Shown piece after piece: positions 25,675 to 60,482 of a DNA stretch of 64,000 bases (its first letter is position 1; every line of letters begins with the position of its first letter). Origin of the DNA: Ectocarpus siliculosus (lineage: Eukaryota; Sar; Phaeophyceae; Ectocarpales; Ectocarpaceae); assembly GCA_000310025.1 (NCBI GenBank), contig FN647768.1:415248-479247 (forward strand). The letters are read 5' to 3'. The notes beneath the pieces are model-generated. The model was not told the DNA's origin. It ran no database searches and saw only the letters and a list, made by a program, of their open reading frames with translations. The position numbers and the translations under genes are program-made.

Positions 25675-26140
25675 TGCGTCTTAGAAGACTGCGTACTCGC
25701 TGGAGGGCGTTGCCCAACAAATTGAAGCCGCGCCACCGAGAATGGAGATCGAGCGTCGGGGTCATCGGCCTGAAGGCCAATGCCCCAAGCACGGTCCAAG
25801 GGACGGGCTTCGGCAAGGATTTTGTCACCTGATCCGAGAAGATGATCTGGTACTCGGAGTTTAGACTAAAGTTTGCGTAAGAGCCAGAGAACACAATGTC
25901 TTCGCGCTCTCGTTCCCAAAGAGATCGATAGGTCGTCACCTCGGACCTCACGGCCAAAGTTCTTGTGTAAGGCAGGGTCGGACACTCGTATGATGTTCTG
26001 CAAAGCTCTGTGTTCTTCGACAAGACGAGCTTTTTCCGCAGCGAAACGTTTCCCAGCACACAAGTAAACACCTCCATTGACCACAAACGTCGATGGTTTC
26101 CATTGGGACAAAGGAGAGGGTGGTTTCCAAAAGAACCCCA
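25675..26140 (-). other. NADAR domain remnant in the Gypsy relic
   Basis: FFWKPPSPLSQW, AAEKARL and WRGFNLLGNALQRVRSLL are all still readable, but over more than one frame. The motif that reads AEQFF in the intact element is CAGKRF here, so the conserved glutamate is lost. WGIG is not preserved in the same frame. Confidence 0.75.
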
Positions 26141-39517: not shown

Positions 39518-42500
39518 CACGCCGGTGACGGCCTTTTGCACACATCGCCGTCAACAGCACCGGGTGTGCGCTGTACGACTAGTTCCCAAGATGTTCGTAT
39601 CACACAGACGCCTTCGGGCTCGCCTATGTTAGTTTCCCAACCTTTTATTTCTCAGATGTCGCCTCACGCCTCATCACAGCCTGTTTTGGATGACCGACGT
39701 GACTCGTCGGCGCCGAATACAGTCTTGTGGTGTGGGCGAGGGGCCGACCAGACTTCGGGTGTCTCACGGACGCTCGCCCCGATGTCTACGCCCCCCGGAG
39801 GCATGGCTCCGGCTTCTCCCACCGTTTCGGCGGCTCCGGGTGGTCTCGTCAACCACGTTGGAGCACAGGAACCTTCGGGACAACCGCAGGCCCGCCGCGG
39901 TGGCTCGAGTACGCTTGTACCCACCGCGCCCCCTCCGGACCCCCCGCGACGTTCCTCTACGGAGCACCAACGTCGCACGGTGCTGACTACACCGCCGTTG
40001 CCGAGCGCAAGTAACGGTTTCCCCAAATCGGAAGGTTCATGTTCTTTGTCACGAAATAGCGGTCCCGAGCCTCCCGCGGTCGCTGACCATGTTGGTCGAG
40101 CGCCCGCGATGAAGGCCGCTTTTAATGAACAGGCCTACGCCGACGTTTTGCGCGAAAACGCCCGCGTAGACCGCTTGGTTTCGCACGCTTCTGCGGCTGG
40201 TTCACCGCTCTTGCCTGCCTCTCCTCGTAACCCACAATCCGGCCCGCCTTCGGGCGGCACCGAGATTGTCCTGCCGGTTGCCGGTGCCATTTCTCTTGAT
40301 GATATTTCTTCGGGGAAGGTAAGCGCACCCGCGCGGCAGGCCCCTGTTTTTGACGGTTGTCAGGAATACTATAACGATGAGGTTTTCCTCTTTTGGAAAC
40401 CGCCGTCCTTTCTGTCTAACTGGACGCCCTGTGAGTTCTCGGTTCATGGCATTCGCTACGTGTGCGGCGAACAGTTCATGATGGCGGAGAAAGCCCGCAT
40501 TTTCGGCGATGATGCCGCTTATGCCAAAATCATGGCTACCTCCGACCCGAGAGAACCCAAGTCCCTTGGTCGCAAGGTACGCGGTTTTGACCATGCTCTA
40601 TGGGAACTCCGGCGTGAGGATGTTGTCTTTTCGCTTTTGTATGCAAAATTCGCCCAAAATGCTGACGCGCGTGAACGTTTGTTGGCTACGGGCGATAGAC
40701 AGATAGCGGAGGCCAGTCCTTATGACGGATTGTGGGGCATTGGTGTTGATGCCTTCGATCCGCGTGCGGCGTCGCCCTCCAAGTGGACTGGTAAAAATCT
40801 TTTGGGCAAAGCGCTTGTTGCGACGCGCACGCTTCTGCGTGTGCGCCCGGTCGAACCCAATAAACCTTTACGCCCTGAACACTCGGGGCAACCTGCCCTT
40901 GTGTGTCCCACTATCCACGAAATTGCGCCCCCGGGTGAGGACTCTTCGGCCAATGATTCCTCGCCCGAGGACACGCGTGGCCCGCTGGACGTGCCAGCCA
41001 CTACGCCCGCGGACCACTCGAAACAGGTGCTGCATATTGCCTCGACTGCTTTTCGCGAAGCCGCCGCTTCCCCACCGCCGCTATTGGCGGAACACGGCCC
41101 AGATTTGGTGAGCGGTGATGTTTTAATTGATTGCGATACCTCTACAACGCGAGTCCGCGTGCATAGTGGTACCGGAGCCGTGTGTACAGCGCCTGGTGTA
41201 GCCCTTTTGGACTCGGGCTCACCTTAATCTTTCATTAGTGATGCTTTCCTTGAAGCCATGGAGGCGTCAGGAGCTGCATCCGTCCGCAGTCGTCGTTCGG
41301 TGCCCGTTCGGCAGTGGGGTGGTTTTGGCTCTGGCAATGCCCTTGAAACCACCTCATCCGTGCGGCTGTCCGTTCAATTTTTTTATGGTGATAGTGCCAC
41401 CGCTTCGTTAGCGGTGTGGGTGTATGTTATCCCAGCTGCCGCCATGGGTCACGCCCTCCTTCTTGGACGTGATAGTTGGATGCGTTTTAACTCTCGTTTG
41501 TCCCCTACTTTGCCCACGCGGTCGGCAAGTGGACGCATTATGGAGAAACTTTCTCTGTCATCGGATTTTGCGGCAGGAGCTTCCGCGTATGTTGCTGGAC
41601 CCTCCGCCCCCGGGCCATCTTACTTCCTGCGGTACGCCGGCAGGAAGGGTGTTTCCCTTTCCGATAAACCCCCTTTGACGAGGGTGAACCTCGTTCGCAA
41701 CTCTGGCACCCCCGCTCTCACCGGCAACTATCTTGTCACATTTTTACCGAAACACGGCGCCCTCTCGGCGTCGGACGCGTTTGTTTCGGACGGGCCTCAA
41801 CACATCCCATTGACAGGGTGCGCCGAGCTGGAGCCAGGTGAGGTGCTTGGAGTGGCGACTGCCCCACTTGTGCAGATTCCGCTTGCGTCGATTGATCCTA
41901 CACCGCAGATGGCCGAGGGTGTTGGGTTGAGTGACCCTCCGCCGCCAGCCCGTTCTGCGGATGGGCCGCCGTCTCGCGTGAATTCTTTGCATTCAAACAT
42001 CCCGGTTGCGGATCCGGAGATCTCGGATTCCCCCGCGGCCTCACTGCCGCCGAAACCGCCGCCACCGGATCTGTTGGAACGCCTCTCAGAAGCGCAGCGA
42101 GGGAGTTTTCGCGAGTTGTGGCAACGTTTGTCTGCACATTTGCACGATGTGACTTTTGATTTACATGACTCGGGTTGGACCCCGGAAGCCATCGACAGCC
42201 TGGCGGATGTGCTGTGTGACTTTTCGGATGTGTTTTCGCGGTCACCGTCCGATTTCGGTTGCTGTTCCGTGAAACCGTTTCGCTTGGAAGTGCCCCCGGG
42301 CACGAAACCGTTGGCCTCGCGTCCCTATAGGCTCAACCATCTGGTGGAGAAAAAGGTTGATGCAATTCTCGATCAATACCTTGCTGCCGGTCTAATTCAG
42401 CACTCGCAATCGCCGTGGGCGAGCCCTCTGGTTGTCATGCCTAAAAAGGACGGCAATCTGCGTTTGACCGTGAACTACACAAAGCTTAACAAATTGTGCA

Positions 42501-45500
42501 GCCTTGGCCAACAACCGCAGCCGCGAGTTGACCACATCATCGATTCCCCGCACAAGGGCAAGGTGTGTTCCATTTTCGATCTTAACTCCGCTTTCCACCA
42601 AATCACCGTCGAAGAGGACACGGTTCAGCTTACGGCGTTTTGTACGCCCACGCAACTTTTCGAGTGGCTCCGTATGCCGCAGGGAAGCTCCGTGGCACCG
42701 TCGTGGTTCACCATGGTCATCAACGAAGTGGTTAAAGGTCTGGACCATGTGCTTGCATACCTGGACGATGTGATTGTGTTTGACGCCGACCCCACCCATC
42801 ATGTCGCCAACATACGGTTGTTTTTGGAGCGTTTGCGCAAGTACAACCTCAAGCTTTCTCCTTTCAAGAGTCGCGTCGGCGCTAAGGAGGCTGTTTACTT
42901 AGGCCGCACAATCTCCCCTGCGGGTGTTAGTCCTCGTGCCGATAAGGTCGAAGCCCTCACAAAAATGCCGCTGCCTAACAACGTCAAAAAGCTGCGTTCC
43001 TTGCTAGGTGGGCTTTCGTATTACCGCAAATTCATCAAGGGTTTGGCCATGCGCGTGAAACCACTCACTGACCTTTTGCGTAAGGACGCGAAGTTTTGTT
43101 TTACGCCGGCTATGGCGGATACCGTCAAAGAACTCTTGGCGAAACTGTCAGAACCTCCGGTTTTGGCTTTCCCGGATTGGGACGTTGTCGCAGATGGCAG
43201 CCGCCCTCTCCGGCTTTGCTGTGATGCCTGTATCGATGGTTTTGGTGCGACCCTTGAACAGGAACAGGCCGATGGTTCCATCCGTCCCATTCTGTTCGTT
43301 AGCCGCACTACGCTCGAATCGGAGCGCAACTGGACAGTGCTCGACTTGGAAGCTGGAAGTATCGTGTGGGCAATTAAACGCTTGCGCGGTTATTTTTGGT
43401 CCACGCACTTTCTGATTTATTCGGATCACAAGGCTTTGGAGAGCATCGTCAAGGTGGGTGAACACAACGCCCGCGTCCAACGTTGGCTCGAGTTCCTTTC
43501 CTCGTTCAATTACACCCTTGTCTACCGCAAAGGCACTGCCAACGCCAATGCGGATTTTCTTTCGCGGTTGCCCTTGCCGGCAACCGACGCGGATAGACAC
43601 GGTGACACCAGTATCGCAGTCGATGACGCCGCGGGCGTGTATCTCATTCGTGCGTGCGGACGGAGTTATCACTCTACTTCGACGCCGAGCATCGGCTTGG
43701 GTGGGCTTGACATTGACGATCAACGAGACGCGTTGGCACACGCGCCTCTGACGGAGGATGACTTTGGGGACTTCCGCCGTTTTGGGCCACAAATGGTCCT
43801 GCCGGCTCTGTCGCCGTCCTCCGTAGTTGATTCGTAGAAATTTTCGCCGCCTGGTGTTTTCGCTGTCGTTTGCGATGCAGCCCCCGAGAGTTCTGTGCCC
43901 GATGGACCTCCTCCGGTTTCCGTTTCTGCGGAGCCAGACGTCGCTCCCTCGTCCACCGTCGGAACCTCCTCAGCTGCCCTGTCGCTTTCGCGTGGCCCTC
44001 TGATTTCTTCTCGTACCCGGGCGAGAACGAATTCGGCCTCGGGCATGGCTCACAGCCGTCCCAATTAATTCCGAAACAACCACGGGCCGTTGTGGTGCCC
44101 AGACCGCCGCGACCTCCTCGAACGCCGGCCCGGTCGAGCCGTGCCGCGCGGTCTACGAGAACCGTGGGTAGCCCTACTTCTGGCCCTCTGCCTTCTTCGG
44201 CGCCGGCTGAATTGCGGCCGCCGCCGCCCGCGCCTGCTGCCGCCACCCCGGCGCCACCGCCGCCCGCGGCGCCCATGCCGCCAGTGTTGTCGCCCGCGGG
44301 TACTAGCCCTGCGACTTCCGTGGTGCCGCCCACGGCCGCGGAGGAAGCCCACCTCCGCGACTGTGTGCATACATTCTCGCATGCCGACTGGGCCCGAGAA
44401 CAGCTGTCAGAAAGTGAGTGTGTAGCGGCTATACATTTTTTGTCTTTGGGATCCCCGGCGGTTTTGCCGGATACATTCTGGGATTGCTTACCCTGTGCGC
44501 GACGGCCGGCGTTGTCTGATGTTGTCGCCCTCGCATCTAAAACATGCCTACATACAGACGATGGTACGCGATTGTTGGTGCGAAATTCTGCCCCACTGCC
44601 TCTCGGTAGTTCGGGCGGGCGTATCACTCGCCTCCCACCTTCGAAGACTCCGCGCATATACGTGCCTATGCTATTGCGACCGTGGGTCCTACAAGCATGT
44701 CACGCCACCGCGTCTTTTCACCTGGGCACCGCTCGGACTTTACGTATGTTGGAGCGATTTTTCTGGTGGATTGGGATGGATTTGTCCGTTCGTTGGTGGC
44801 TTCGGCATTGTTTAATTTGCCAAGCGCGCAAGACTTCCCGGCAAACGTATCGTTCGCCTACGCTCACTCTGCCCCTCCCGAATGGGCCGGGTATTGTAGT
44901 GAGCGTCGATTTTTTTGGGCCATTGCCGGTCACGTCCCGTGGGAATGCATATATACTTTTGTTTACGGACCGTTTCAGTCGACGGGAGGATATGTATGCC
45001 ACTACCAAGGCGGAATTTACCGCTAAGGGAACCGCTAACATATTCGTCAACCGCTACATGGCGTTGTGGGGTTGTCCGGTGACTCTTCGTTCGGATAACG
45101 GTATGCAATTTTGTTCCAAGTTGTCCATGGCTATTTACGGGCTGATGAAGATCAAGAAAGTCACCACCAGTTCGTACCACCCCCAAACTAACGGTGGGGC
45201 CGAGCGTGTTAACCACACCATGGCTCAAATGCTTGCTGGTGGCCCGGCCAAAGCGGAGGATTCCCCGGATGGAAAACCTGTGGAGCGCAAACTTCTCTAC
45301 CTGGACCTGCCGTCAGACATGCTGGGACCAGAATCCCGCAACCGTGTCTCCATCTTGCGGTGCAAATCCTGTACCAACCCATACGACCAAATTACCTGCC
45401 TAAGTATATGCCGGCCAATCTGTCGAAATATGTTTTGCAATCGTATAGTAACAAGTCTCCCCCGTATAATTTGACTGCTGATGATATTTTAGCGGAGTCT

Positions 45501-47431: not shown

Positions 47432-47561
47432 TTACTCAGCGCCACTCCCTCTCCCCTTTTCTATTCACCCAGTGCCTCACCCTCTCCCCTCTATTTTACT
47501 TACATAGTGCCCTACCCATTCTCCTCTTTGCGAGTAACACGTACACAGCGCCACGCCCTCC
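47432..47561. repeat. Pyrimidine-rich minisatellite, left of the Gypsy insertion
   Basis: Units with CAGCGCCAC/CAGTGCCTC followed by CCTCTCC continue on the other side of the retrotransposon at 60483. The last bases CTCC (47558-47561) are the target duplication. Confidence 0.75.
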
Positions 47562-47829
47562 TGTAGTGGTATGCACGCGTGATGAAGTCTGGTTGACCCG
47601 TGAAGAAGAACTCACTTGTTGTTACTCTTGTAGAACAGCAGCAGCAGTAGCTGTTGCCTTGGGTATCGGCAGGAATGACACCAAGGGGCACAGGATCCTC
47701 TGCACAAGCAGGGGCTACTAGATCCTGTCCCCTGCTTTTTATCCTTCCGCGGAGAGTTACATCTCTCCGCGCCTTCTAGAAGGAACCAAGCTCTTCTATG
47801 TTCCGTCTACACATCTGAATCCTATAACA
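47562..47829 (-). repeat. 3' LTR (268 bp), minus-strand Gypsy
   Basis: In element orientation it starts TGTTATAGG and ends CCACTACA. It is identical to 60211-60478. Confidence 0.92.
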
Positions 47830-47831
47830 CT

Positions 47832-48381: not shown

Positions 48382-51300
48382 TTAATGGGGGCGCGCCACG
48401 TTATCAGGCAACGAATCAGCCCCGGGGTCACCACGCGACATGTCGACGTTGCGAAGGATCCCCTTAAAAAGGGCACTACCGCTGTGAACTTGAAGGCACC
48501 AGGATCCGGAGACGGCGGTTTCAGCGGTGGAGTAGCGAACATCAGGAAGAGCGAGCTTGACAGGGCCAGGATCGTCCAAGAAGCGGACGACGTAGAAGTC
48601 GGACGGTAGAGGCGGTCCAGTAATCTTGCCCAACCACCAGAATCCATCGCGAGCTTTGTACCAGAAGAAGGCGCCGGCAGGTAGCGGAGTATTGGCGAAG
48701 CGACGGTCCCAAGTTGAACGAGAGACGAGCGAATAACCCGAAGGCAAAGCTCGCTCCCCTTTAGCGCGCGCCATCTCGCGGGTGGCCGCACCAATACGCA
48801 TCGCCGGATAGCGACGATTCGTTTGGCGATGTTGATCAGGCGAACCCGTCCAGTACCGGAGAATGTGGGGCTTGGAATGCTGGAGGTCCATCTCACGTTC
48901 CCAAGAAGGACGAAGAAGACCTTTCCAATGCGTTTGGTATAAAACAGCGATGGTGCCACCACGGCCACGAACAGACTGATGGCCACTAATGCGGTCAACC
49001 TCGAGACGTTCGACCGGAGTCGACACGTCGTCTTCCGTAACATGGTAGGGAGGAGATTTATTCACATAGGAGTTTAGCACATACGGTGTAAGGCCGGCAG
49101 GCAGGAACCGAGGCAAGTCTTCAGTGTCATGCGGATTAGCGCAAGGCTTGCAACGCGCAACTGACACACGGTTTTTCGAGTCCGGACCCGGCAGATCCGA
49201 TGGAAGGTCCAAATACAGTAATTTGGAAGCCAGAGGACAACCGTCGGGAGCGTCAGGACACGGACCCACGGCCAAGATCTTGAACGGACCAGTCCACAGG
49301 AAAGACAACTTAGCCTTGAGGACCTTGTCATCCGTGCCTGAACGAACACCTTGGCGAATGGTAGATTCGGTGTTGTACACCCAAACCCATCCACCGACGG
49401 TGTATGAGGGGACCTTGCGCAAAGCATCCGATAGGGCGGAGTTACGCCGCTCAATCCTCGAAACGGACAGGTTGTGCTGTTCGCGAACTAAATCGTAAGA
49501 ACGACGTTGGCGATCAGCAGCCAGATCGCAATACTCAAGTTGATCGCCATGCAAGCTTTGGTGGCCTCGAGCATATGGATGCTCAAAAACCGTCATCGGC
49601 ATGTGTGGCAGTCGGTTCATATGCACCTCGTTGGGCGCCAAACCAGTAGCGGCACTAACCGAATTGTTGTAGGCAAACTCAACGTGCGGCAAATGAATGT
49701 CCCAATCATCTTGCCTCTCATTGACGACCATAGCCAACATCTGAGCCATAGTGTGATTGACGCGCTCCACACCCCCATTGCCGTTGGGATGGTAAGAGCT
49801 GGTAGCCACTTTGCGTATAGCCAGACGGGCGTATACAGCCTGCGACAGTTTGGAACAAAACTGAGAGCCATTATCAGACAAGAGACTCAAAGGGCAACCC
49901 CATAAAGGGATATACCGATTGACAAGTACGTCAGCGGTGCCTTCGGCGGTGAATTCTGCAGCCGTAACCGCGTACATGTCAGCACGGCGGCTGAAACGGT
50001 CAGTGAAAAGCAGAATATATGTGTTTCCGCGCGGTGTCAACGGGAGGGGACCGAAATAATCGACGCTCACCGATACACCAGGGCCCGAAGGCAGCGGAAG
50101 GCACAAAGTAGGCCATCGAGGCGTTTGACGAGATGACTTGCGAGCTTGGCATCGCAAACAATGCCGTACCCACCACTTTGTGCAAACACTCATGCCAACC
50201 CACCAATAAAAACGTTCCAGCATGCTAAGCGTGCGAGCGGCACCGAGGTGGCAGGATGCATCAGCGTGACAGGCCTGCATGATCCACGGACGCATGAGCA
50301 TGGGAACATAAATCCTAATGGGTTCGTCGTTGAGAAGGCGAGCAGCACGCCCGCCAGGACGTGTGGTCGTAGACGACGGGGGCGCTGTTTGCTTGCGAAC
50401 AAGCAAGACCAAACCATCATCGTCAACATGTAACCGGCCTTTGTTAGACAGGTCACGAATCTCCGACAGAGGGGGTCGACGAGCGGACGGAAGATGATCC
50501 AGGAAATCCGGAGGGAGAGCCGAAGGCCGACCCAGAAGGATGAAACGAATAGCTGCATCACAAACAGGTTCGTTACGTTGCTCGCGAGCCCAATCAGCAT
50601 GCGAGAAACGTTCGACAGACGCCCGGAAGGCTAAATCTGCCGAGGAATGTAAAGCCGCCTCGATAGAAGAGGGGGCCGATTCCTGAGGCTCCGGCTGCAA
50701 TCCACCCGAAGGCAGAGTAGCAGCGGAAACCGAAGACGAAGGCGTATAAGTGGTCGAAACCAAATGCGTCGAAAATTCCGAAGAATCGGGAGCAGCAGAA
50801 GACTGCTGGGCAGGAGCAACCGAAGTCGCAGGATGCGTCGAAGACGCAAGATCCCTTCCACGAGCCAGAGGCGTATGGAGGTCTGGGATCGAAGTGTCAG
50901 CACCAGGAGCCGAAACCAACCTGGTCAAAACGGGGGGCGTAGTCGATGTTGATTGCGCTGGCGGGGAACGTCGAAACGATCGGGGCGAAGCGGAAATCCG
51001 AGTAGGAGAAGGCGGATCCTCGGAGAAACCATAATCCACGGGCGGGAGGGGCGTGCCTGCCACAACCGCCGTGCGACGGCGAGTTCGCGTGGAAATCAGT
51101 TGAGTAGGGTCGAGAGTCCGTCGTGATGCTGCAGGCGGCGAGACGGCCGACGAAGACTCGGGCTCGAGAGCCAAAATGTCCTCCACCGAAGAATGTAAGG
51201 AGCCAGACCAATCGAGGGTCCTGTCACTCAGGCGTCGTAACGAAGGAGACAACTCGCGGGAGTTGATGGACGGCCAGGGTGCGATGTTCCAGATGCCAGG

Positions 51301-52695
51301 CGGAGAAGAAAGGCCTGACGGCGAGAGACGTGGACCATGCCGACGGAAGTCGACAAAATCATCTGTAGAGGGGGCCAGCCCACCCAAGACCGAAGTCGGG
51401 GAAGTCGGGACGAGCCCACCCAAGCCAACACCCACGGCGCGATGGCCAGAAGGCGTAAGGCCACAAGAACGGATGAAGAATACGCTCTCCTCATCGTCAT
51501 CCGGTGTCAAACGACTGCGACCAGATCGGTCACATTCCGCCGCATCGATCGGAAGGCGAGAGAGGAAATCAGCGTTGCCATTTGCTGAACCCTTGCGGTA
51601 CTCGAGAGTGTAATTGTAGGCGGTAAGAAATTCAAGCCAACGCTGAACGCGGGCATTGTTCTCCCCCACCTTGGCAAAATGCTCAAGAGATTTGTGGTCG
51701 GTAAAAATGCGAAATTTCGTGCCCCACAAATAACCGCGGAGTCGTTTGATGCACCATACGATGCTACCCGCCTCGAGGTCGAGGGGAGTCCAATGACGTT
51801 CGGAGTCCAAAGTAGCTCGGCTGATGAAAACGATGGGCCGGATGGAGCCATCCGGCTGTTCTTGTTCGAGAGTCCCGCCGAACCCATCGCGACTAGCATC
51901 ACAGTAGAGGCGAAAAGGTCGCGAGCCGTCCGTAACGGCATCCCAGTCTGGATAAACCAAGACAGGAGGATTGGCCAACTCAGACAGCAGGACGCGAACA
52001 GCTTGCTCCATGGCAGGGGTGAAGGCAAACGTCGCCTGCTTCTTGAGAAGAGTGGTCAGAGGTCGAATTCGCGTGGCCATGTTGGGAAGGAACTTGCGGT
52101 AGTAGCTGAGGCCGCCGAGAAGAGAGCGAAGTTGTTTAACATCCTTTGGCATGGGCATTTGGGTGAGGGCCGCAACCTTGGCCCCGTTAGGCCGAACACC
52201 GTCCGGGGAGATGGTGTGGCCGAGGAAATCCGCTTCGGTAGCGCCAATGGTGGCCTTCGGTGGGGTGAGTTTCAAGTTGTGTGTGCGCAAGCGTTCAAAC
52301 AGAGCGCGCATGGTATCAACATGAGAAGCAGGGTTGTCGTCGAAAACGATCAAATCATCCAAGTACGATGCAACACCGTGGAGATTTTTGATGACTTCGT
52401 TGACCACCTTGCAAAACCACCCAGGGGCAGCAGAACTGCCCTGAGGCATCTTCAACCACTCAAAAAGCCCGGAAGACGTCACGAATGCCGTCAAAGGGAT
52501 TGTATCACGGTGAACCGTGATTTGGTGGAATGAAGACTTCATGTCGAAAAGGGAATAAATTCGCCCTTTCAACAACTTGTCCAAAGTATCATCAACTCGA
52601 GGAATCGGAAGCTGGCTCAAAGCACAGAGCTTGTTGAGCTTGCGATAGTTGACAGTGATGCGAACACCACCAGATTTCTTCGGTATGACTACCAA
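48382..52695 (-). CDS. Pol, main part: RT, RNase H, integrase, chromodomain, Tudor-like domain
   Basis: A 1437-residue frame with no stop, beginning inside RT. RT has PKKSGGVRITVNYRKLNKL at the start and YLDDLIVF at residues 111-114. RNase H (about 260-390) has LYCDAS, LDLEA and FTDHKSLEH. Integrase has the HHCC finger (HADASCHLGAAR, CLRCQARK), catalytic residues in VSVDYFGPLP, LSDNGSQF and VERVNH, and the GPY/F-like LWTGPFKIL. About residues 1232-1285 form a chromodomain (RISGHQSVRGRGG, THWKGLLRPSWEREMDL). About 1340-1400 (FFWYKARDGFWWLGKI, YVVRFLDDPG) resembles a Tudor/Agenet fold. The real N-terminus is upstream: related copies carry SPYSSPLVVIPKK here, and this copy has an extra A just before. 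Confidence 0.9.
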   Translation of the reverse strand: MVVIPKKSGGVRITVNYRKLNKLCALSQLPIPRVDDTLDKLLKGRIYSLFDMKSSFHQITVHRDTIPLTAFVTSSGLFEWLKMPQGSSAAPGWFCKVVNEVIKNLHGVASYLDDLIVFDDNPASHVDTMRALFERLRTHNLKLTPPKATIGATEADFLGHTISPDGVRPNGAKVAALTQMPMPKDVKQLRSLLGGLSYYRKFLPNMATRIRPLTTLLKKQATFAFTPAMEQAVRVLLSELANPPVLVYPDWDAVTDGSRPFRLYCDASRDGFGGTLEQEQPDGSIRPIVFISRATLDSERHWTPLDLEAGSIVWCIKRLRGYLWGTKFRIFTDHKSLEHFAKVGENNARVQRWLEFLTAYNYTLEYRKGSANGNADFLSRLPIDAAECDRSGRSRLTPDDDEESVFFIRSCGLTPSGHRAVGVGLGGLVPTSPTSVLGGLAPSTDDFVDFRRHGPRLSPSGLSSPPGIWNIAPWPSINSRELSPSLRRLSDRTLDWSGSLHSSVEDILALEPESSSAVSPPAASRRTLDPTQLISTRTRRRTAVVAGTPLPPVDYGFSEDPPSPTRISASPRSFRRSPPAQSTSTTPPVLTRLVSAPGADTSIPDLHTPLARGRDLASSTHPATSVAPAQQSSAAPDSSEFSTHLVSTTYTPSSSVSAATLPSGGLQPEPQESAPSSIEAALHSSADLAFRASVERFSHADWAREQRNEPVCDAAIRFILLGRPSALPPDFLDHLPSARRPPLSEIRDLSNKGRLHVDDDGLVLLVRKQTAPPSSTTTRPGGRAARLLNDEPIRIYVPMLMRPWIMQACHADASCHLGAARTLSMLERFYWWVGMSVCTKWWVRHCLRCQARKSSRQTPRWPTLCLPLPSGPGVSVSVDYFGPLPLTPRGNTYILLFTDRFSRRADMYAVTAAEFTAEGTADVLVNRYIPLWGCPLSLLSDNGSQFCSKLSQAVYARLAIRKVATSSYHPNGNGGVERVNHTMAQMLAMVVNERQDDWDIHLPHVEFAYNNSVSAATGLAPNEVHMNRLPHMPMTVFEHPYARGHQSLHGDQLEYCDLAADRQRRSYDLVREQHNLSVSRIERRNSALSDALRKVPSYTVGGWVWVYNTESTIRQGVRSGTDDKVLKAKLSFLWTGPFKILAVGPCPDAPDGCPLASKLLYLDLPSDLPGPDSKNRVSVARCKPCANPHDTEDLPRFLPAGLTPYVLNSYVNKSPPYHVTEDDVSTPVERLEVDRISGHQSVRGRGGTIAVLYQTHWKGLLRPSWEREMDLQHSKPHILRYWTGSPDQHRQTNRRYPAMRIGAATREMARAKGERALPSGYSLVSRSTWDRRFANTPLPAGAFFWYKARDGFWWLGKITGPPLPSDFYVVRFLDDPGPVKLALPDVRYSTAETAVSGSWCLQVHSGSALFKGILRNVDMSRGDPGADSLPDNVARPH

Positions 52696-55600
52696 AGGAC
52701 TTCGAGTAGGGCGAGGTCGAATGTTGGATCAGACCAGCCGCAAAGATATTGATCAAGGATCGCGTCAACTTGTTTCGCCACCGGGGGGTTAACGCGGTAT
52801 GGACGAGACGTGACGGGTGCACTGCCCGGAGGAACTGTAAGCTTGAAAGGAAAAAGCGAACAAGATCCAAAGTCGGTGGGGGAACTCGAGAAGACATCAT
52901 GATAGTCGCACAGGACGTTACCAAGCTGAGTGATGACATCCGGAGTCCAACCCGGACCATGGAGATCAAAAGAAATCTCCCGGAGATGGCAGGGGAGCTT
53001 ATCCCATACGTGGGAGAAAAACTCTGACGTTGTTCAGACGTCAACCGCTCGAGAAGAGCAGGCGGAGGCGACGAAAGAGAAGCACTGGCAGAACCAGGGT
53101 CCTCTTTGCCGCTTTGCGACGGCGTGGGTCGCTCATGCAAATTATACACGAAGGGGTCATCAATGCGATGCGTGGCAGACGAATCAATGCCATCTGTCGA
53201 AACAGGACCCGGAACCCAGCTGCCCGAAGCAGTGGTGGGATCTTGAGCCGCAGGTTGAAGACCATCGCTCAAACTGTGGCGAGACACAGCACTGAGAGGC
53301 ACGCGAAGAAGGGGAGCCGAAGCTGTACCCAGAACGTCGCCTGGTTCGAGTGAAGAGATACCCGCGAGCGGGAGTCGTTGGCAACCATTTTGCACAAAGT
53401 GTTCCTCGGAAGAAAACATAGCACATTGTGGAAGCATATCCACGAGATAGTTACCCACGAGGGCTGGAGAGCCATCGCTGCGTACCAAATTAACCGGAAC
53501 AAGGCTATGTTCAGGGTGAAGTTGGACGGAATGTTTTCCAGCATAGCGAAGCTGGTAGTTACCATCTGTGGAAGACAAATCGTGAGCAAATGCGGTGGCA
53601 CCGCAACTGCTATGCTGAGCCAGGGTAAGCTCACCAAAAACACGGTCACCAGGGCGTTTGGCACGCAAAGTGCGGTAAGAGCGGTCGCTAAACCGCATCC
53701 AACTGTCTCTCCCAAGGAGCACGTCATGATGCATAACACCATCGGGAACAACGTACGCCCAAACAGCGAGAGAGGAAGTAGGAAGGTGCTTGCGAAGAAA
53801 CTGCACGCTCAAACGGACAATAGTCGAAGTTTGAAGTGGAGCAGATTCGCCGAAACCTCCCCAACAGCGAGGTTGGGTTTGTTTCTCAGACAACGACGAA
53901 GCTGCCGAAGCGGCTTTCATGGATTCCCACGCAGATGCACTAATAAAAGACTGCGGGGAACCCGTGTCTAAAAGAGCAACACATCCAAACTGAACAGAAG
54001 CTGAACCACTGTGAGTGAGGATTTGGGTGGTGAAAGAGTCATCATCGATGGTAACAACACCATCAACCAAATCCGGACCTTGCTCAGGAAGCAAAGAAGA
54101 GGAAGAGGATGGCTGAGGGCACCCGGAAGACACGGCCCAAACAGCGGTGTCATGATCCGATGGAACATTCGCAGCGTATTGTGAAAACGACGCGAATCGT
54201 TCAGTCGACGGAGGGGTTGAGGCCATCCGAAGACGCTGGTGTGTAGAAGGGCTAACTTCATAAACCGCGTTATGTTGAGACGACGTCGAAACGTGGTCGT
54301 TGAGGGGCAGCAAACGAGAGCTGCGCTCGGGCGGCGGGGCATTGCATCGCAAAAGACTGCGTACTCGTTGAAGGGCATTGCCCAACAAATTGAGGCCACG
54401 CCATCGAGAGGTGGATAGAGCGTCGGGATCATCGGCTTGAAGGCCAATGCCCCAAATACGGTCGTAGGGACTAGCTTCGGCAAGGATTTTGTCGCCAGAT
54501 CCGAGAAGATGCTCGCGCAACTCGGAGTTTTGACTAATTTTTGCGTAAGAGCCAGTGAGCACAATATTTTCGCGCTCCTGTTCCCAAAGTGATGGGTCGA
54601 AACCACGGACACCTCGGCCAAACTTCTTGTGTAAGGCAGGATCGGACACGCGCATGATGTTTTGTAAAGCGCAATGGTCTTCGAAAAGACGAGCTTTTTC
54701 CGCAGCGAAAAACTGCTCAGCACACGAGTATACCACTCCATCGACCACAAAAGTCGACGGGGTCCATTGGGAAAAGGGAGAGGGGGGCTGCCAAAAGAAG
54801 ACCATATCAGGAGTACAATACTCGTTAGATGGGTCGAAGACAGCGGGAACTGCAGGAGTCGAAACACCTGGAGTGCGGTCAGCCGAAGCTGAGGTTGCAG
54901 CCGAAGCTGATGTAGTCGAAGCGGAGGCAGCCGAAACGCCCGCATTGTAATTTACGGCGTGAACGTCCATGGGGACGGTCTCGGACATGCCAGAGACCGG
55001 CGAAGAATCGGCCGGAGCCGGATTGGTCGCAATAATTGGGCCAGCGACATGACGTTGGGTGCGCCCCAATTCTAAACCTGAAGAAACGCCTCGTAAGGTG
55101 TCATTCAACAGGTTGCTTTCGCTAGAAACGGCCGCCAAGGCCGGGTCGGTTAAAGAACCAAACCGGGCGTGGTGCTCCTGGCCATTCCCTGACAAGGTAG
55201 GCGAGACCGCCGGCTGTTCGGAGGTCACTCCGGGAGGGTCCTCCCGAAGCGGTGGTGTCAACACTGTCGACGTCGGTCGCGGCGGCCTGGTATCGGGCGC
55301 CGTGGGGCGAGCGTGCGTCGGAAGGGATGGAGCGTCCGAAGACGATCCATGGTCGAAATATCTCGTGGCGGAATCTGATGATGTTCGGCGGTCAGGACCA
55401 AGAGAACAACGCGATTCGAAGCCAGGCGAATTTGACCCTGTAACTTGCCGGTCGGAACCAGTCAAGTTAGCTACCGGTGCAACAATCGAGGGCGAACCCT
55501 CAACGGAAGCGAGCACAGACGAGTTGAGCGTATCCGAAGATTCACCCGAGGTAACCAATTCAGGCGATTCCTCTTCAATCGTCCAAAGCGCATGGCTACG

Positions 55601-56125
55601 GCCGGTCTGATCTGCAGACGACGGGGGGAGCGAACGAGCGGTGCCCGACAAACGAGCGGTACTCGATGGCCCCGAAGGTCCTACGGTTCTGTTCCCGCAC
55701 CTCAAGACAGCACTCGCGCCAGACTGGTTAATTTCTGACGGAGCGCCAGCCCGAAGAGGCAGAGACGCAGAGGTGGCAGATGATAAGTGCGATGTAGAAG
55801 GTGGGACGAGAGCATTTGTCTGGATACCGACCTGATCGACACTGGGGGAAACAACGGGTACCGAAGTATGGTTGTTATTGTGCGGCACCGAAGTACCAGA
55901 AGGGATAACATTCACCGAAGTGTGGTTATCGTTGCGTAGGACCGAAGTGCTAGAGGCAACAGTGTGTGACGGCGCGACAGATACCGAAGTATTGTCGTTG
56001 TTGCATAAAACCGAAGTATTAGGGGCAACAGAGCGTGACACACGAGCGTCTTGTGATGAACGAGATGAGGTCCCCGAAGATGCTGAAGGCGGTCCGGGGG
56101 AAGTAGGCGAACCACCACCGATGAG
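52592..56125 (-). CDS. Pol, N-terminal part: NADAR and aspartic protease
   Basis: The frame continues directly from the UGA at 56126-56128 (first Met at 56041). About 400 Ser/Thr-rich residues, with repeated SVAP/TSVLRNDNHTSV phrases, precede NADAR (54352-54815). The protease follows with LLDTGSPQSF (DTG near 53970) and LLLGRDSWMRF (near 53710). Near 53034 a T5 run replaces what should be T6, and the next 300 bases (including SCSLFPF-like RT N-terminus) are in the neighbouring frame. An extra T near 52752 returns to this frame and an extra A near 52701 moves into the main Pol frame. As it stands the polyprotein is interrupted before RT. Confidence 0.85.
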   Translation of the reverse strand, partial: LIGGGSPTSPGPPSASSGTSSRSSQDARVSRSVAPNTSVLCNNDNTSVSVAPSHTVASSTSVLRNDNHTSVNVIPSGTSVPHNNNHTSVPVVSPSVDQVGIQTNALVPPSTSHLSSATSASLPLRAGAPSEINQSGASAVLRCGNRTVGPSGPSSTARLSGTARSLPPSSADQTGRSHALWTIEEESPELVTSGESSDTLNSSVLASVEGSPSIVAPVANLTGSDRQVTGSNSPGFESRCSLGPDRRTSSDSATRYFDHGSSSDAPSLPTHARPTAPDTRPPRPTSTVLTPPLREDPPGVTSEQPAVSPTLSGNGQEHHARFGSLTDPALAAVSSESNLLNDTLRGVSSGLELGRTQRHVAGPIIATNPAPADSSPVSGMSETVPMDVHAVNYNAGVSAASASTTSASAATSASADRTPGVSTPAVPAVFDPSNEYCTPDMVFFWQPPSPFSQWTPSTFVVDGVVYSCAEQFFAAEKARLFEDHCALQNIMRVSDPALHKKFGRGVRGFDPSLWEQERENIVLTGSYAKISQNSELREHLLGSGDKILAEASPYDRIWGIGLQADDPDALSTSRWRGLNLLGNALQRVRSLLRCNAPPPERSSRLLPLNDHVSTSSQHNAVYEVSPSTHQRLRMASTPPSTERFASFSQYAANVPSDHDTAVWAVSSGCPQPSSSSSLLPEQGPDLVDGVVTIDDDSFTTQILTHSGSASVQFGCVALLDTGSPQSFISASAWESMKAASAASSLSEKQTQPRCWGGFGESAPLQTSTIVRLSVQFLRKHLPTSSLAVWAYVVPDGVMHHDVLLGRDSWMRFSDRSYRTLRAKRPGDRVFGELTLAQHSSCGATAFAHDLSSTDGNYQLRYAGKHSVQLHPEHSLVPVNLVRSDGSPALVGNYLVDMLPQCAMFSSEEHFVQNGCQRLPLAGISSLEPGDVLGTASAPLLRVPLSAVSRHSLSDGLQPAAQDPTTASGSWVPGPVSTDGIDSSATHRIDDPFVYNLHERPTPSQSGKEDPGSASASLSSPPPALLERLTSEQRQSFSPTYGISSPAISGRFLLISMVRVGLRMSSLSLVTSCATIMMSSRVPPPTLDLVRFFLSSLQFLRAVHPSRLVHTALTPRWRNKLTRSLINIFAAGLIQHSTSPYSKSFGSHTEEIWWCSHHCQLSQAQQALCFEPASDSSS
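54352..54815 (-). other. NADAR (YbiA/DUF1768-like) domain in Gypsy Pol, intact frame
   Basis: About 155 residues at roughly positions 408-565 after the first Met. Motifs in order: VFFWQPPSPFSQWTPSTF, CAEQFFAAEKARLF, KFGRGVRGFD, SYAKISQN, LLGSGDKILAEASPYD, IWGIGLQ and WRGLNLLGNALQRVRSLL. All family landmarks are kept, including the glutamate in EQ, the AEKA box and WGIG. About half the residues differ from the plus-strand element's domain, with changes mainly outside the motifs. Confidence 0.93.
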
Positions 56126-56128
56126 TCA
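56126..56128 (-). promoter_or_regulatory. In-frame UGA between nucleocapsid and Pol, possible readthrough codon
   Basis: The frame is open before (RSRSG) and after (LIGGGSPTSPG) the single TGA, with the next codon CTC. The plus-strand element has TGA-CAC in the same place and the relic keeps TGACTC. UGA followed by C is the leakiest stop context. Readthrough itself is inference. Confidence 0.55.
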
Positions 56129-56815
56129 TCCACTGCGAGAACGACCACCATGTTGGAAGTTGCCAGGTTGACGGGCATTGTGATTGGTCGAAACCATAAT
56201 GCCAGACGAAGGACCGGTGTGTGCATGTGTTTGAGGTTGATAGAGGGACAGAGCACCAGTGTGGTTGGTGTTGACCGAAGGGTGTTGCTGAGGGTGAGAG
56301 TTACCGGCAGAATTTCCTGGGGCATACCCACCGTTGTGCGATTGTGGCTGATGAGTGTGAGGGGAACTACCACCGTCGGAACGGCGATTCCCAGCGTGGT
56401 TTCGACGCTGAGAGGACGAAGAGGAAGAGCGCTGGAGGCGTCTACCCTGATTGTTTTGGCGGTTGTCCGCACTTTTTCGTCGAAAAGACCGCATACGGCC
56501 TTGCCAACGTCTAAAAGCAGCAGAATCGTCATTGAGGAGACCCAACTCAGGGTTCAACAACCCACTAGAATTCGTGAACGGTGCAACGCATTGCTTCATG
56601 GAATGGTCTTCACCCGAGCAGTTCAGACAGCGATTCCTGTTTTCGCGGAAGGCTTGCGAACGAGCCTCTTGTGTCAACAAAGGAGTCCACAAAAAAGGAT
56701 CCTCCGTGTTGCGAAAGCTAGAAGTGAGAGCGTATACATCAGACCAATCGGCTTGCGAAGCAGGCCAAGAATTATAGTTGCGTGTGAAAGGGTCAGCATC
56801 GTGCGAATGTACTGG
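56129..56815 (-). CDS. Gag nucleocapsid segment with CCHC zinc knuckle
   Basis: It is in the same frame as Gag and Pol, separated from the Gag body by TAG (56816-56818). CLNCSGEDHSMKQC fits C-x2-C-x4-H-x4-C. A basic and Ser/Asn/His-rich tail follows (RRKSADNRQNNQGRR, SSSSSSQRRNHAG), suited to RNA binding. Compared with the relic there is one extra base just after the TAG, so the stop may come from a local indel and not be a designed boundary. Confidence 0.75.
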
Positions 56816-59800
56816 CTAAACTACAGGGTTCTGAGCTGAACCTGGTGCCCACTGGCCCGAAGGCGCGGGGGCGCGGTGTTGGGACCGCCGAGGCTGCGAA
56901 GAGCCACGCATCGAAGACAACGAAAAATAAGATGAACCGCCGATAGCCGGGGTTTTATTTGTCGCTAGAGGCGCGAACGCCTCCCACATATCCGCAATCG
57001 ACGCAAAGGGGGTGACGGCCGTGGCCAGAGCACCCGGGTACAAAACCGGAGACAAACTCGGAAATTGCTTGCAGACCGAATGCCGCACTATTTCTAGGAC
57101 CATGGATACGCTAGGGGCCAAAGTACGCTCAGAGCCAGTCACAGACGAAACCAACAAACGAAAAGCACGAAGGTAATCCGCGAAAGAAGTACCATCTGCT
57201 ACTCCAAATTGTTGAAGCCTCAAAAACGACTCTTGACGGTCGCCGACATCAAATTGCTCCGCAAGATGGCGCAACAGCAACTGAAAAGCTTCTGGTCCAG
57301 TGGCGCCGCTGTCCAAGCTTCTCTTCACCTGCTGAAAGTAATCAGCAATGGAAAGGACAAGATCGGCAGTGGAGGGCTTGTCAGGGGTGATCGCACCCGA
57401 GTGTTTCTTTTCGAGAGGCCGTTCCCATCCAGGCACGTAATCAGTACTGTCCAACCCTTCGCTTTGGTCATCACACAGCAAAAATATGTCGGACAAGGCC
57501 GTTCGTGTTGTGCGGATGAGCTGTTGGTAGCCGTCCCCAGGCAACAAAGTTGAAGGGAAGGGCATGGTAGCGACATTTCCAACTTTTTTCAAGTTCAGAG
57601 TGATGTACGCCCGTTGGACAGTAACTACGTGAGCCTTGCGAACTGCCGAAGCAGCCGCATCTACTGTGGCTTGACGAGCATGTGCAATGTTGGAGGAAAG
57701 TGGCAAAACACTATCATCCGAAACGACAGGGGGTGCAGCAGCTGCAACCGAAGAAGCAGCAGGCGGAACACGATCCCAAGACGGTACAACATGATGAACA
57801 TCTTGTACGGGCACAAAAGTCGAAGGGGGGGTGGGGTTTGAGAACCCGGGGTTGTGTGCGATTCCTGAGCCTACAGCATAATCAGCGGTAGAAAAAACAG
57901 GAGGGGCAACAGTTTCCGAAGAAACGGGGGGGGCCGAAGCCTGTGGCATGTTCGAAAACGCAGCACGAATTTCCGAAGAAACGGGGGGGGCCGAAGCCGG
58001 AAGGTTCGAAAACGCAACACGAGGTTCCGAAGAAACGGGGGGGGCCGAAGCCGGAAGGTTCGAAAACGCAACACGAGTTTCCGAAGAAACGGGGGGGGCC
58101 GAAGCCGGGGGTACTGCCGAAGCAGGGGTGGCGGCCGAAGCCGAGGGCGCCGCCGAAGCAGCGGTGGTGGCCGAAGCCGAGGGTGCCGCCGAAGCAGCGA
58201 TGGTGGCCGAAGCCGAGGGCGGCGCCGAAGCAGCGATAGTGGCCGAAGTCGCCGACGCCGCGGGGGGTAGAACCATCTGGACAGGCTCGGCCGGCCGGCC
58301 GGTGGCTGCAGACCTTGTTCCGCCGCCGGTGGCGGAATCCCGAAGCTCGGGAGTCGAAAGCCTAACTGAAGATGTCGGCTCGTGCTTGGGGGCCGGAGTC
58401 GTGGTCACCATGGTGCTAAGAAGGCCGTGGAGATGGCGATTGTAGCGCTCTGCGATTTCGAGACGATGAAAAGCCTCAGCCGTAGCAGCACGTTCATGCG
58501 AAGAAGAAAGCATGGGGGGGGGTGGGGGCACGGCGTAAGGGTAAGGGGAAAGGGTAGGGGCAGAGGGTACTGCTGAAACAACCGAGGTCGCAGCTAGGGG
58601 CGCCGAAGCAGGAGCTAGCATGGCAGAGTCGGTCGAAACGGTAGGATCGAAACCCGCCGTGTGAACACGTGAATCTGTGGAAAATGCGAGCAGAGGCGTA
58701 TCTACTGGCATAGAAACAGCGGTGTTTACAGCAGCCGAAGCCGCTGACACAGGGTTCTGTGTGGAAGTAGTGTGGGCGGGGAAAGGGGCAGACGACACTG
58801 TACGCAGGGTCGAAACGGTGCGAATAGGCGGAGCTGCAGGAATATTAGCATCGCCAGCAGTCGAAACTGTGAGCAGGGGCGAAGCTAATGGAATGGGCAA
58901 AAGTACACGTGCAGCAGTCGAAACCGCAGAGACAGGTGCACCAGTAGTGGGAACATGATAGGCATGTGGGGGGGCAGACGTCACAGCAGTACGCAGCGTC
59001 GAAACGGTACGCAAAGGTGGGGCGGCTAAGGCAGCAGCACCGCGAACAGTCGAAACTGTGGGTAGCGGCGGAGCTAAAGGGATGGGGGCAAACACACCTA
59101 CAGCAGTCGAGACCGCAGGGACAGGCACATTAGCAGTCGAAACTGCACGTGTAGTCGAAACTACTGAAGCTAAAGCATCGGAGGCAAACGAAATGGCCTG
59201 TGTGGGCGAAACCACGGGATCAGATGCAGTAGAATCAACCGAAAGAGCTGGGGTAGACGAGGCTACTGTGGGGAGTGTACCAGAGGCAATCGAAATCGCC
59301 CGTGTAGTCGAAACTACTGGAACAGTGGTTGGTAATGCGGCGGAATCTGCAAGCGGTGATGTCACTGAAGCAGATGCACGACGGTCACGAAGCCGTTGAG
59401 CGCGAGCCGCTGCTTGTACACGATCGCTACGAGAAGAAAAAGGGGGAATCGCCGGCACTGTATAGTCGAACTGCAACGTGCTGCGAGAAGCCGAGCGACT
59501 GGACAAGCGTGGTACTACAGGGCCAGCAACATGGTCGAAACCGATGTCGGTCCCAAGAGCAGGGTGCTCAACGGTGGATGGGGCGAGAGGAAAATTCGAG
59601 TCGACATGTGGTTCACGCGGGAATTCAGAAAGCTCATCACCAGCAGCCGTCGAGACGGACTGCTGTTGTACACCCAAAGACACAGAGGCAGGAACCGAAG
59701 TTCCAGGTGTGGGTGCTGGCGGTTTGAGGACAGCACCCACGGGGTTAGCGTCGACCGAAGCCTGCGAGGCGAACCTCTCCCGAATGCGTTGAGCGCGAAG

Positions 59801-60001
59801 CTCTGACAAACGAGCGGCATCGGCAATAGGGTCAGCGGCACGAGCACCGTCCGAAGACAGCAGCAGCTGTGTGGCCTGACGGCCAGCTGCCGGGGACCCG
59901 AAGGTCGCTACGCGAGGCGATGGCACTGGCGAACGCGAACGTTCCGAATGCTCAGGACTCGCCGAAGCAGAGTCCGATGAGCCGACGCTAGATTGAGACA
60001 T
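56816..60001 (-). CDS. Gag, long Ser/Ala/Pro-rich form with capsid-like C-terminus
   Basis: ATG at 60001 (MSQSSVGSSDSASASPEH) is the best start. The frame stays open further upstream only through the leader and LTR. About 1060 residues. The first 750 are low-complexity with many VSTxxA phrases, then AASAPPSASAT repeats, then an 18-residue repeat (54 bp, about 57913-58110). Only the last 250 (AYITLNLKKVGNVATMPFPS, YFQQVKRSLDSG, LRLQQFGVADGTSF) are helical and resemble a Gypsy capsid. Nearly the same arrangement (FLETKDKSG, LQDFGVPNGTPYS) is in the plus-strand Gag. Unusually long for a Gypsy Gag. Confidence 0.82.
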   Translation of the reverse strand: MSQSSVGSSDSASASPEHSERSRSPVPSPRVATFGSPAAGRQATQLLLSSDGARAADPIADAARLSELRAQRIRERFASQASVDANPVGAVLKPPAPTPGTSVPASVSLGVQQQSVSTAAGDELSEFPREPHVDSNFPLAPSTVEHPALGTDIGFDHVAGPVVPRLSSRSASRSTLQFDYTVPAIPPFSSRSDRVQAAARAQRLRDRRASASVTSPLADSAALPTTVPVVSTTRAISIASGTLPTVASSTPALSVDSTASDPVVSPTQAISFASDALASVVSTTRAVSTANVPVPAVSTAVGVFAPIPLAPPLPTVSTVRGAAALAAPPLRTVSTLRTAVTSAPPHAYHVPTTGAPVSAVSTAARVLLPIPLASPLLTVSTAGDANIPAAPPIRTVSTLRTVSSAPFPAHTTSTQNPVSAASAAVNTAVSMPVDTPLLAFSTDSRVHTAGFDPTVSTDSAMLAPASAPLAATSVVSAVPSAPTLSPYPYAVPPPPPMLSSSHERAATAEAFHRLEIAERYNRHLHGLLSTMVTTTPAPKHEPTSSVRLSTPELRDSATGGGTRSAATGRPAEPVQMVLPPAASATSATIAASAPPSASATIAASAAPSASATTAASAAPSASAATPASAVPPASAPPVSSETRVAFSNLPASAPPVSSEPRVAFSNLPASAPPVSSEIRAAFSNMPQASAPPVSSETVAPPVFSTADYAVGSGIAHNPGFSNPTPPSTFVPVQDVHHVVPSWDRVPPAASSVAAAAPPVVSDDSVLPLSSNIAHARQATVDAAASAVRKAHVVTVQRAYITLNLKKVGNVATMPFPSTLLPGDGYQQLIRTTRTALSDIFLLCDDQSEGLDSTDYVPGWERPLEKKHSGAITPDKPSTADLVLSIADYFQQVKRSLDSGATGPEAFQLLLRHLAEQFDVGDRQESFLRLQQFGVADGTSFADYLRAFRLLVSSVTGSERTLAPSVSMVLEIVRHSVCKQFPSLSPVLYPGALATAVTPFASIADMWEAFAPLATNKTPAIGGSSYFSLSSMRGSSQPRRSQHRAPAPSGQWAPGSAQNPVV

Positions 60002-60136
60002 ACCGATAAGCGAGGCAAAGCTAAACTGTGGTTGGGACGAAAGCGCAAAAAACTGCAGCAGCAGCCTAAAGTACCAAACCGCGCCAAAACACAACCAAGC
60101 CAGACAACACCGTACGAATAAGCCGACAACGCCAAG

Positions 60137-60210
60137 TGTAGTGGTATGCACGCGTGATGAAGTCTGGTTGACCCGTGAAGAAGAACTCCTGTCCTGCCGA
60201 CGACGCCAAG
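60137..60210 (-). repeat. Partial duplicate of the LTR end and primer-binding site in the leader
   Basis: Bases 60137-60188 repeat the first 52 bases of the LTR (plus-strand view). The joining CGACAACGCCAAG at 60124-60136 repeats the primer-binding site before 60211. The leader thus contains a second LTR-end/PBS junction. Confidence 0.75.
60191..60208 (-). promoter_or_regulatory. Primer-binding site
   Basis: In element orientation TGGCGTCGTCGGCAGGAC lies two bases after the 5' LTR. The first ten bases are the same as in the plus-strand element, so both families probably use the same tRNA, not identified here. Confidence 0.7.
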
Positions 60211-60478
60211 TGTAGTGGTATGCACGCGTGATGAAGTCTGGTTGACCCGTGAAGAAGAACTCACTTGTTGTTACTCTTGTAGAACAGCAGCAGCAGTAGC
60301 TGTTGCCTTGGGTATCGGCAGGAATGACACCAAGGGGCACAGGATCCTCTGCACAAGCAGGGGCTACTAGATCCTGTCCCCTGCTTTTTATCCTTCCGCG
60401 GAGAGTTACATCTCTCCGCGCCTTCTAGAAGGAACCAAGCTCTTCTATGTTCCGTCTACACATCTGAATCCTATAACA
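60211..60478 (-). repeat. 5' LTR (268 bp), minus-strand Gypsy
   Basis: It is identical to 47562-47829. CTCC follows at 60479 as the target duplication. Confidence 0.92.
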
Positions 60479-60482
60479 CTCC

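Follow-up and report, generated by a model that had tools for sequence, protein, structure and literature searches.

A YbiA-family NADAR domain is a conserved and apparently selected part of the Pol polyprotein in a Ty3/Gypsy lineage of Ectocarpus, with a shared in-frame UGA at the Gag/Pol junction

What does a NADAR domain do in the middle of an LTR retrotransposon? The question is raised by a locus of Ectocarpus siliculosus in which such a domain and the element around it both lie on the minus strand of the window (the whole stretch of 64,000 nucleotides that was analysed). A Pfam search of the minus-strand frame 52592-56125 placed NADAR (PF08719) at residues 443-593 and covered the whole 163-position profile, with an E value of 3.8e-44 and a score of 151.2 bits against a curated cut-off of 35.1, which rules out chance or weak homology. 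The sequence-only reading had described a complete NADAR (YbiA/DUF1768) domain here, and all the family motifs that it named are present in the translated frame. The structural comparison that it proposed also bears it out: the domain has the YbiA fold and is 29% identical to E. coli YbiA (2b3w) in the structural alignment. The last strand of its active site (residues 118-121) carries a Glu (E121), neither Asp nor His, the feature by which the YbiA subfamily is defined (PMC11125620), and Glu is found at this place in 65 of 65 copies. A DarT-linked antitoxin of the BC4488 subfamily, for which Asp would be expected, was rejected on this ground and because the partner DarT is missing (no PF14487 match in the genome search).

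The surrounding element has the protease-RT-RNase H-integrase order of Ty3/Gypsy elements and identical 268-nt TG...CA LTRs, flanked by a possible target-site duplication GGAG that at 4 bp is weak (Table 1); the identity extends over the 270-nt stretches 60211-60480 and 47562-47831. The NADAR was said to lie between the Gag-Pol boundary and the protease, and it does, with the Gag zinc knuckle (CX2CX4HX4C) on its 5' side and the DTGS protease on its 3' side. About 435 codons separate it from the UGA. Continuity of the frame with Pol, also claimed, holds from the NADAR through the protease and stops short of the reverse transcriptase in the window copy, in which RT, RNase H and integrase occupy a separate frame (48382-52728). 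An in-frame TAG at 56816 splits the Gag of this copy and is absent from both sister copies read there. The window copy is thus broken despite its identical LTRs, by a private TAG in Gag and a frame change between protease and RT. On the inner side of the 5' LTR, and close to it (60122-60188, minus strand), lies a further copy of 52 nt from the LTR 3' end, and a putative primer-binding-site stretch, CTTGGCGT, adjoins both LTR-end copies.

Table 1. Features of the window element and the UGA junction of a second element (window positions)
Feature	Position	Strand	Basis or remark
5' LTR, TG...CA, 268 nt (identical stretch 270 nt, up to 60480)	60211-60478	-	sequence comparison
3' LTR, identical to 5' LTR	47562-47829	-	sequence comparison
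Possible target-site duplication GGAG, 5' side	60479-60482	-	flanks of both LTRs; 4 bp only, weak
Possible target-site duplication GGAG, 3' side	47558-47561	-	flanks of both LTRs; 4 bp only, weak
Long Gag-side open frame, without Pfam match	56819-60424	-	ends at private TAG 56816-56818
Gag zinc knuckle CX2CX4HX4C (CLNCSGEDHSMKQC)	56588-56629	-	read in translation
In-frame UGA, Gag / NADAR-Pol boundary	56126-56128	-	common to all seven subfamilies
Potential stem-loop 9 nt 3' of UGA	56088-56116	-	arms 56112-56116 and 56088-56092, 19-nt loop
NADAR (YbiA-type) domain	54347-54799	-	Pfam profile match
Retroviral-type aspartic protease, DTGS motif	53705-53980	-	Asp_protease_2 weak (E 0.2); conserved in copies
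Frame-change zone between protease and RT, window copy	52592-52728	-	
Reverse transcriptase, YLDD at 52354-52365	52210-52686	-	Pfam and motif
RNase H	51616-51924	-	Pfam
Integrase, H2C2 zinc domain and core	49786-50307	-	Pfam and motif
Chromodomain-like C-terminus	48850-49002	-	E 0.05, below cut-off
UGA junction of subfamily D element	39515-39517	+	UGA-C and GRYGG motif

The presence of NADAR in Ectocarpus Gypsy Pol is already published. Dinatale et al. 2025 (PMC12477816) describe one Gypsy lineage whose members all have an N-terminal NADAR of the YbiA family in Pol, propose capture from bacteria and leave its role open. The claim that no retrotransposon was known to carry a NADAR therefore fails, and the sequence-only reading as a whole is partly supported, its domain confirmed and its novelty lost. 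The lineage in the window is probably that of Dinatale et al. (Gypsy-12_Ec32 type), the comparison with the elements of Ectocarpus sp. 7 being made by description rather than by sequence; the C-terminal chromodomain of their lineage scores below the cut-off here (E 0.05), and the segment is conserved in 19 of 20 copies. Published Ectocarpus primers (PMC2546422) agree with the host genus in three of four cases: both UBQ primers match exactly at the reported 101-bp spacing and the UBCE forward primer is exact, and for the CYC reverse primer the nearest site has 3 mismatches. Among the matches listed in a literature search on NADAR or DUF1768 and retrotransposons, only PMC12477816 was judged relevant, and the term DUF1768 was not found together with a retrotransposon. 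The words readthrough, stop codon and frameshift are absent from its main text (supplements lying outside that scope). In the literature searched, represented for PMC12477816 by its main text, we found no description of the UGA junction of these elements, nor of the retention of catalytic residues or the constraint on NADAR relative to protease and zinc knuckle.

A profile search of the 189 Mb genome listed 150 NADAR matches, scored from 230 candidates, so that a unique capture event is ruled out by copies genome-wide. A protease and/or RT of the lineage is linked to 138 of the 150: in 136 it is listed on the same strand within 6 kb, and two further NADARs (ranks 15 and 116) were linked by reading the loci. 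The other 12 matches were left unread, and of the 150 protease rows listed, about 125 entered the count, the remaining 25 containing none beside an unlinked NADAR. With 138 of the 150 listed matches tied to the element and 12 unread, a stand-alone host NADAR gene was rejected as an explanation, with the proviso that an intron-split gene would score low and may escape such a search. All 20 copies read over 10 kb have the order NADAR-PR-RT-RNase H-IN, with some domains broken; a zinc-knuckle region lies upstream in 17 of them and the chromodomain segment is present in 19. Single open Pol frames with NADAR, protease and RT elsewhere in the genome span 2,376-2,580 codons, the searches for the three domains giving one frame length at a shared place. 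Clustering of 65 NADAR sequences at 85% identity yields seven subfamilies and three degraded singletons, and the subfamily NADARs are 54-76% identical to that of the window.

Not every related element carries the domain. Among the 150 listed RT rows, 28 have no listed NADAR upstream, and of these seven were read and 21 left unread; two of the seven have a broken NADAR, three are deleted or truncated, and two represent a sister Gypsy lineage (L038 and L039; G000:C384, C60) with 48% RT identity. In the sister lineage, NADAR is undetectable within the 1.67 kb that precede the protease, and the 3 kb read contain no UGA-GRYGG motif. Such deleted copies, together with the sister lineage, indicate that not all related elements need NADAR.

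Several other loci deserve mention in their own right. The window holds a second NADAR-Gypsy element, of subfamily D (39515-45474, plus strand), with NADAR at 40391-40840, RT, RNase H, integrase pieces and unresolved bases (N) on its Gag side, as well as a third, degraded copy (25866-27343, minus strand) whose NADAR fragment within 25866-27107 scores 26.5 bits, below the cut-off. Elsewhere, L035 (G000:C26:254500-257400) lacks NADAR and has, shortly before the protease, sequence resembling the far 3' flank of related copies; this derivative is possibly an internally deleted, non-autonomous form. The open frames around two NADARs, at G000:C3:3913787-3914242 and C489:435177-435536, measure 10,887 and 6,365 residues, well beyond a single Pol, and perhaps reflect runs of N.

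The closest bacterial NADARs found, from Planctomycetota and Myxococcota, are 54-57% identical and sit in open frames of 174-193 residues. By eye, the lists of open frames neighbouring the three closest (L080-L082) contain no clear partner. In the NADAR tree, for which bacteria were sampled only via two shared peptide patterns, the seven element subfamilies form one group with weak support (73/19). The data fit, without proving, the capture from bacteria that Dinatale et al. proposed. A search for NADAR relatives in IMG/VR gave 14 pattern matches, none of them confirmed.

A possible host descendant is Esi0017_0056, a stress-induced Ectocarpus gene that makes Arabidopsis more tolerant of salt and heat. 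Its product of 391 residues carries NADAR at 132-291, its nearest relatives are reported to be two other Ectocarpus proteins and then bacteria, and two introns are predicted (PMC7922944). Since 138 of the 150 listed NADARs are tied to Gypsy Pol (12 unread), this gene may derive from a NADAR-Gypsy element; the two predicted introns could speak against an element copy. A 394-codon open frame (L127), considered as a candidate of the Esi0017_0056 type, proved to be an element copy with a protease.

Is the domain kept as an enzyme? In the NADAR of P. nicotianae, E43, K50 and E125 are needed for guanine-ADP-ribose hydrolysis or contact ADP-ribose (PMC11543638), and their equivalents are retained in 63, 63 and 65 of 65 copies, respectively, which rules out a loss of catalytic residues among these copies (they cover further score ranks and are not a random draw). 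Synonymous divergence is near saturation in all domains and pairs tested (pS 0.69-0.93); because dS has reached saturation for almost every pair, subfamilies are compared by pN and pS instead of dN/dS. For NADAR, pS is 0.76-0.87 (saturated) and pN only 0.23-0.34 in six pairs, subfamily B being without a pair because its copies hold stops. NADAR pN is below that of the protease in six of six shared pairs and below that of the zinc-knuckle region in three of three, and above that of RT in five of six, in a comparison of long copies that are the top 20 by NADAR score and may thus favour a conserved NADAR. RNase H (pN 0.16-0.25) and integrase (pN 0.13-0.26) are tighter than NADAR. Within subfamily A (11 copies), mean dN is 0.0104 and mean dS 0.0150, a ratio of about 0.7, which is what young copies, most of them decaying, should show. 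The low pN against saturated pS indicates that NADAR is under purifying selection in the element. Judged by its sequence record, the YbiA-family NADAR has long belonged to the Pol polyprotein of this Ectocarpus Ty3/Gypsy lineage and has been kept there by selection, and we predict that it is very probably both catalytically competent and selected.

The junction upstream of the domain is conserved as well. Where the NADAR frame is open far upstream, it extends back to a UGA in the copies read, and beyond the UGA the same frame reaches the zinc knuckle in several copies; the linker between UGA and NADAR comprises about 280-435 codons across the lineage. At ten junctions first read without a motif filter, C is the next base after UGA. 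UGA-C was found at the junction in 26 of 31 loci (17 of the 20 long copies, the window element, six of eight loci from two more subfamilies, and both sisters, L078 and L079); the three long copies without it also have no detectable zinc knuckle. A conserved in-frame stop with both sides open, as in a readthrough signal, is present in seven of seven subfamilies, the stop being unseen at five of the 31 loci. UGA-C followed 9 nt on by GRYGG also marks the junctions of both other NADAR copies in the window (39515 and 27341); this motif occurs four times in the 64 kb on both strands, once (36435) away from junctions. At one locus, L121 (G000:C37:267100-268250), one frame is free of stops throughout the 1.15 kb preceding NADAR, and a search there did not turn up the UGA motif.

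When one copy of each subfamily is examined, all seven allow five base pairs between GRYGG and a segment that follows it after 16 or 19 nt. One pair is G-C in five subfamilies, G-U in one and A-U in one, with both sides changed in the last, and a second is C-G in six and U-G in one. All five pairs are possible in 23 of 24 motif-bearing copies, the other (L123) having four; L078, in which the motif is altered, also loses one pair by reading and adjoins one of the longest open Pol frames. A comparable stem occurs at 1.6% of positions in these elements. The conserved Gly/Pro encoded by both arms partly account for the stem, which, given also the common ancestry of the subfamilies, amounts to moderate evidence. 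The loop of the window stem can in addition pair with sequence just downstream, a potential pseudoknot. Against shuffled sequence this loop pairing has p values of 0.013 (window), 0.031 (D), 0.011 (E), 0.37 (C) and 0.87 (F), combined about 0.003; it stands out less when compared with real windows of these elements, of which 164 of 1272, 23 of 1185 and 3 of 62 do as well.

How the stretch after the UGA is translated admits two readings. Readthrough would be the simplest route, and NADAR is probably made only in this way, as part of Gag-Pol. The alternative that Gag and Pol are not joined, with the UGA just ending Gag and Pol arising from internal initiation, an internal promoter or splicing, strikes us as unlikely. 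Its precedent is Tca2, in which a UGA and a potential pseudoknot at the Gag/Pol junction were reported as insufficient for readthrough in yeast and an internal promoter is present (PMC2194720); the result calls for caution, since such junctions may not suffice, and in subfamilies A, B and D the first in-frame Met comes 14-47 codons after the UGA. In the window element, however, there is no Met in the first 379 codons 3' of the UGA (the first is codon 380), and subfamily C has its first at codon 221, although no stop interrupts the frame as far back as the UGA. The 193 codons after the UGA that can be aligned between the window and subfamily E are kept at the protein level (pN 0.325, pS 0.553), and the presence of UGA-C in all seven subfamilies likewise argues against a UGA that only ends Gag.

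These elements, as read from their sequences, have the order Gag zinc knuckle-UGA-linker-NADAR-protease-RT-RNase H-integrase-chromodomain-like tail, with catalytic residues, purifying selection on NADAR and the UGA in seven subfamilies. For their NADAR we propose the following function, at a probability of roughly 40% for the full chain. A minority of ribosome passages would read through the UGA, so that NADAR is made within Gag-Pol, enters the particle and is perhaps released by the adjoining protease; its place behind a stop at the head of Pol would keep its amount low and let it travel with RT. In the particle it would hydrolyse N-glycosidic adducts, most likely (we are less sure of this step) ADP-ribose on guanine, on packaged RNA or nascent cDNA. 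Such adducts, if left in place, would stop reverse transcription or flag the element for restriction. Removal of ADP-ribose from guanine in DNA is documented for four NADAR types of E. coli and phage and for an oomycete NADAR (PMC11125620, PMC11543638), and all NADARs tested removed guanine ADP-ribose on RNA (PMC11833690). They are reported as inactive on ADP-ribose at phosphate ends or on thymidine (PMC11543638, PMC11125620, PMC11833690), and in one family comparison were the only hydrolase family to reverse ADP-ribosylation of the guanosine base in RNA (PMC11833690). NADARs also stand beside the polymerase in RNA-virus polyproteins (PMC9503650).

The same domain might instead act on small molecules in the cytoplasm, on ADP-ribose- or NAD-derived signals or flavin intermediates, and so blunt a host alarm, as already proposed for phage NADARs, or protect the cell. 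We regard this as possible and somewhat doubtful: the domain has long stayed fused to Pol, with a stop before it and the protease after it, an arrangement more in keeping with a particle protein in low copy number than with an enzyme of metabolism, and the NADARs of eukaryotic RNA viruses have been argued to act on macromolecules (PMC9503650). Less probable again is a role in binding, in which the domain would target the element or help it to mature by way of RNA, the cap complex or ADP-ribosylated chromatin proteins, with hydrolysis secondary. Trans-splicing in nematodes depends on SNA-3, which has three NADAR domains and makes contact with the cap-binding complex (PMC9303266), and the element has a chromodomain-like tail besides; however, catalytic residues are kept in nearly every copy, and SNA-3 function is lost also when the homologues of catalytic residues are mutated (PMC9303266). 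It is very improbable that NADAR is a passenger, captured from bacteria and now of no use to the element. Capture itself is plausible, given bacterial relatives at 54-57% identity, and some deleted copies do without the domain, but seven subfamilies have kept catalytic residues intact at 54-76% identity to the window, with synonymous sites saturated in the tested pairs, and neutral sequence would be gone at such saturation.

If the in-particle enzyme proposed above exists, it might serve counter-defence, a de-ADP-ribosylating activity delivered by UGA readthrough against a putative algal ADP-ribosylation of guanine in retroelement RNA or cDNA; we consider this more specific version doubtful. 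The genome has no PF14487 match for a DarT-type writer and only four PARP-like pieces, and no guanine-specific ADP-ribosylating writer was found in it by the DarT and PARP searches. Were it true, it would implicate nucleic-acid ADP-ribosylation in the restriction of retrotransposons by eukaryotes, and NADAR would, to our knowledge, be the first retroelement-encoded eraser of this modification. More generally, retention by a retroelement bears on the physiological role of NADARs: a domain kept intact until synonymous saturation indicates that an N-linked adduct or a derivative of ADP-ribose is of consequence to the lineage, and the conserved UGA junction and catalytic residues make its role testable.

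Of the known NADARs, that of P. nicotianae (8bau; 33% identical to the window NADAR in the structural alignment) and the E. coli YbiA compared above both lie outside any retroelement Pol. The NADARs of nidoviruses, hepe-like and picorna-like viruses (PMC9503650) resemble the present case in sharing a polyprotein with a polymerase. They differ in belonging to RNA viruses with an RNA-dependent RNA polymerase, and polyprotein-length viral chains are about 16-27% identical in structural matches to the window NADAR. The Gag/Pol junction of murine leukaemia virus has an in-frame UAG with a potential pseudoknot downstream. Tca2 has a UGA in the same setting (PMC2194720), as do the elements described here. 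Both belong to other element families, and in Ectocarpus the pseudoknot is partly supported and readthrough putative. An accessory enzyme at this place also has a retroviral counterpart. The betaretroviral dUTPase sits between nucleocapsid and protease, is made by frameshifting and is likewise a nucleotide-directed enzyme at the same place in Gag-Pro-Pol; its fold and chemistry are unrelated to those of NADAR, and by analogy the logic of the NADAR arrangement appears to resemble that of the retroviral dUTPase.
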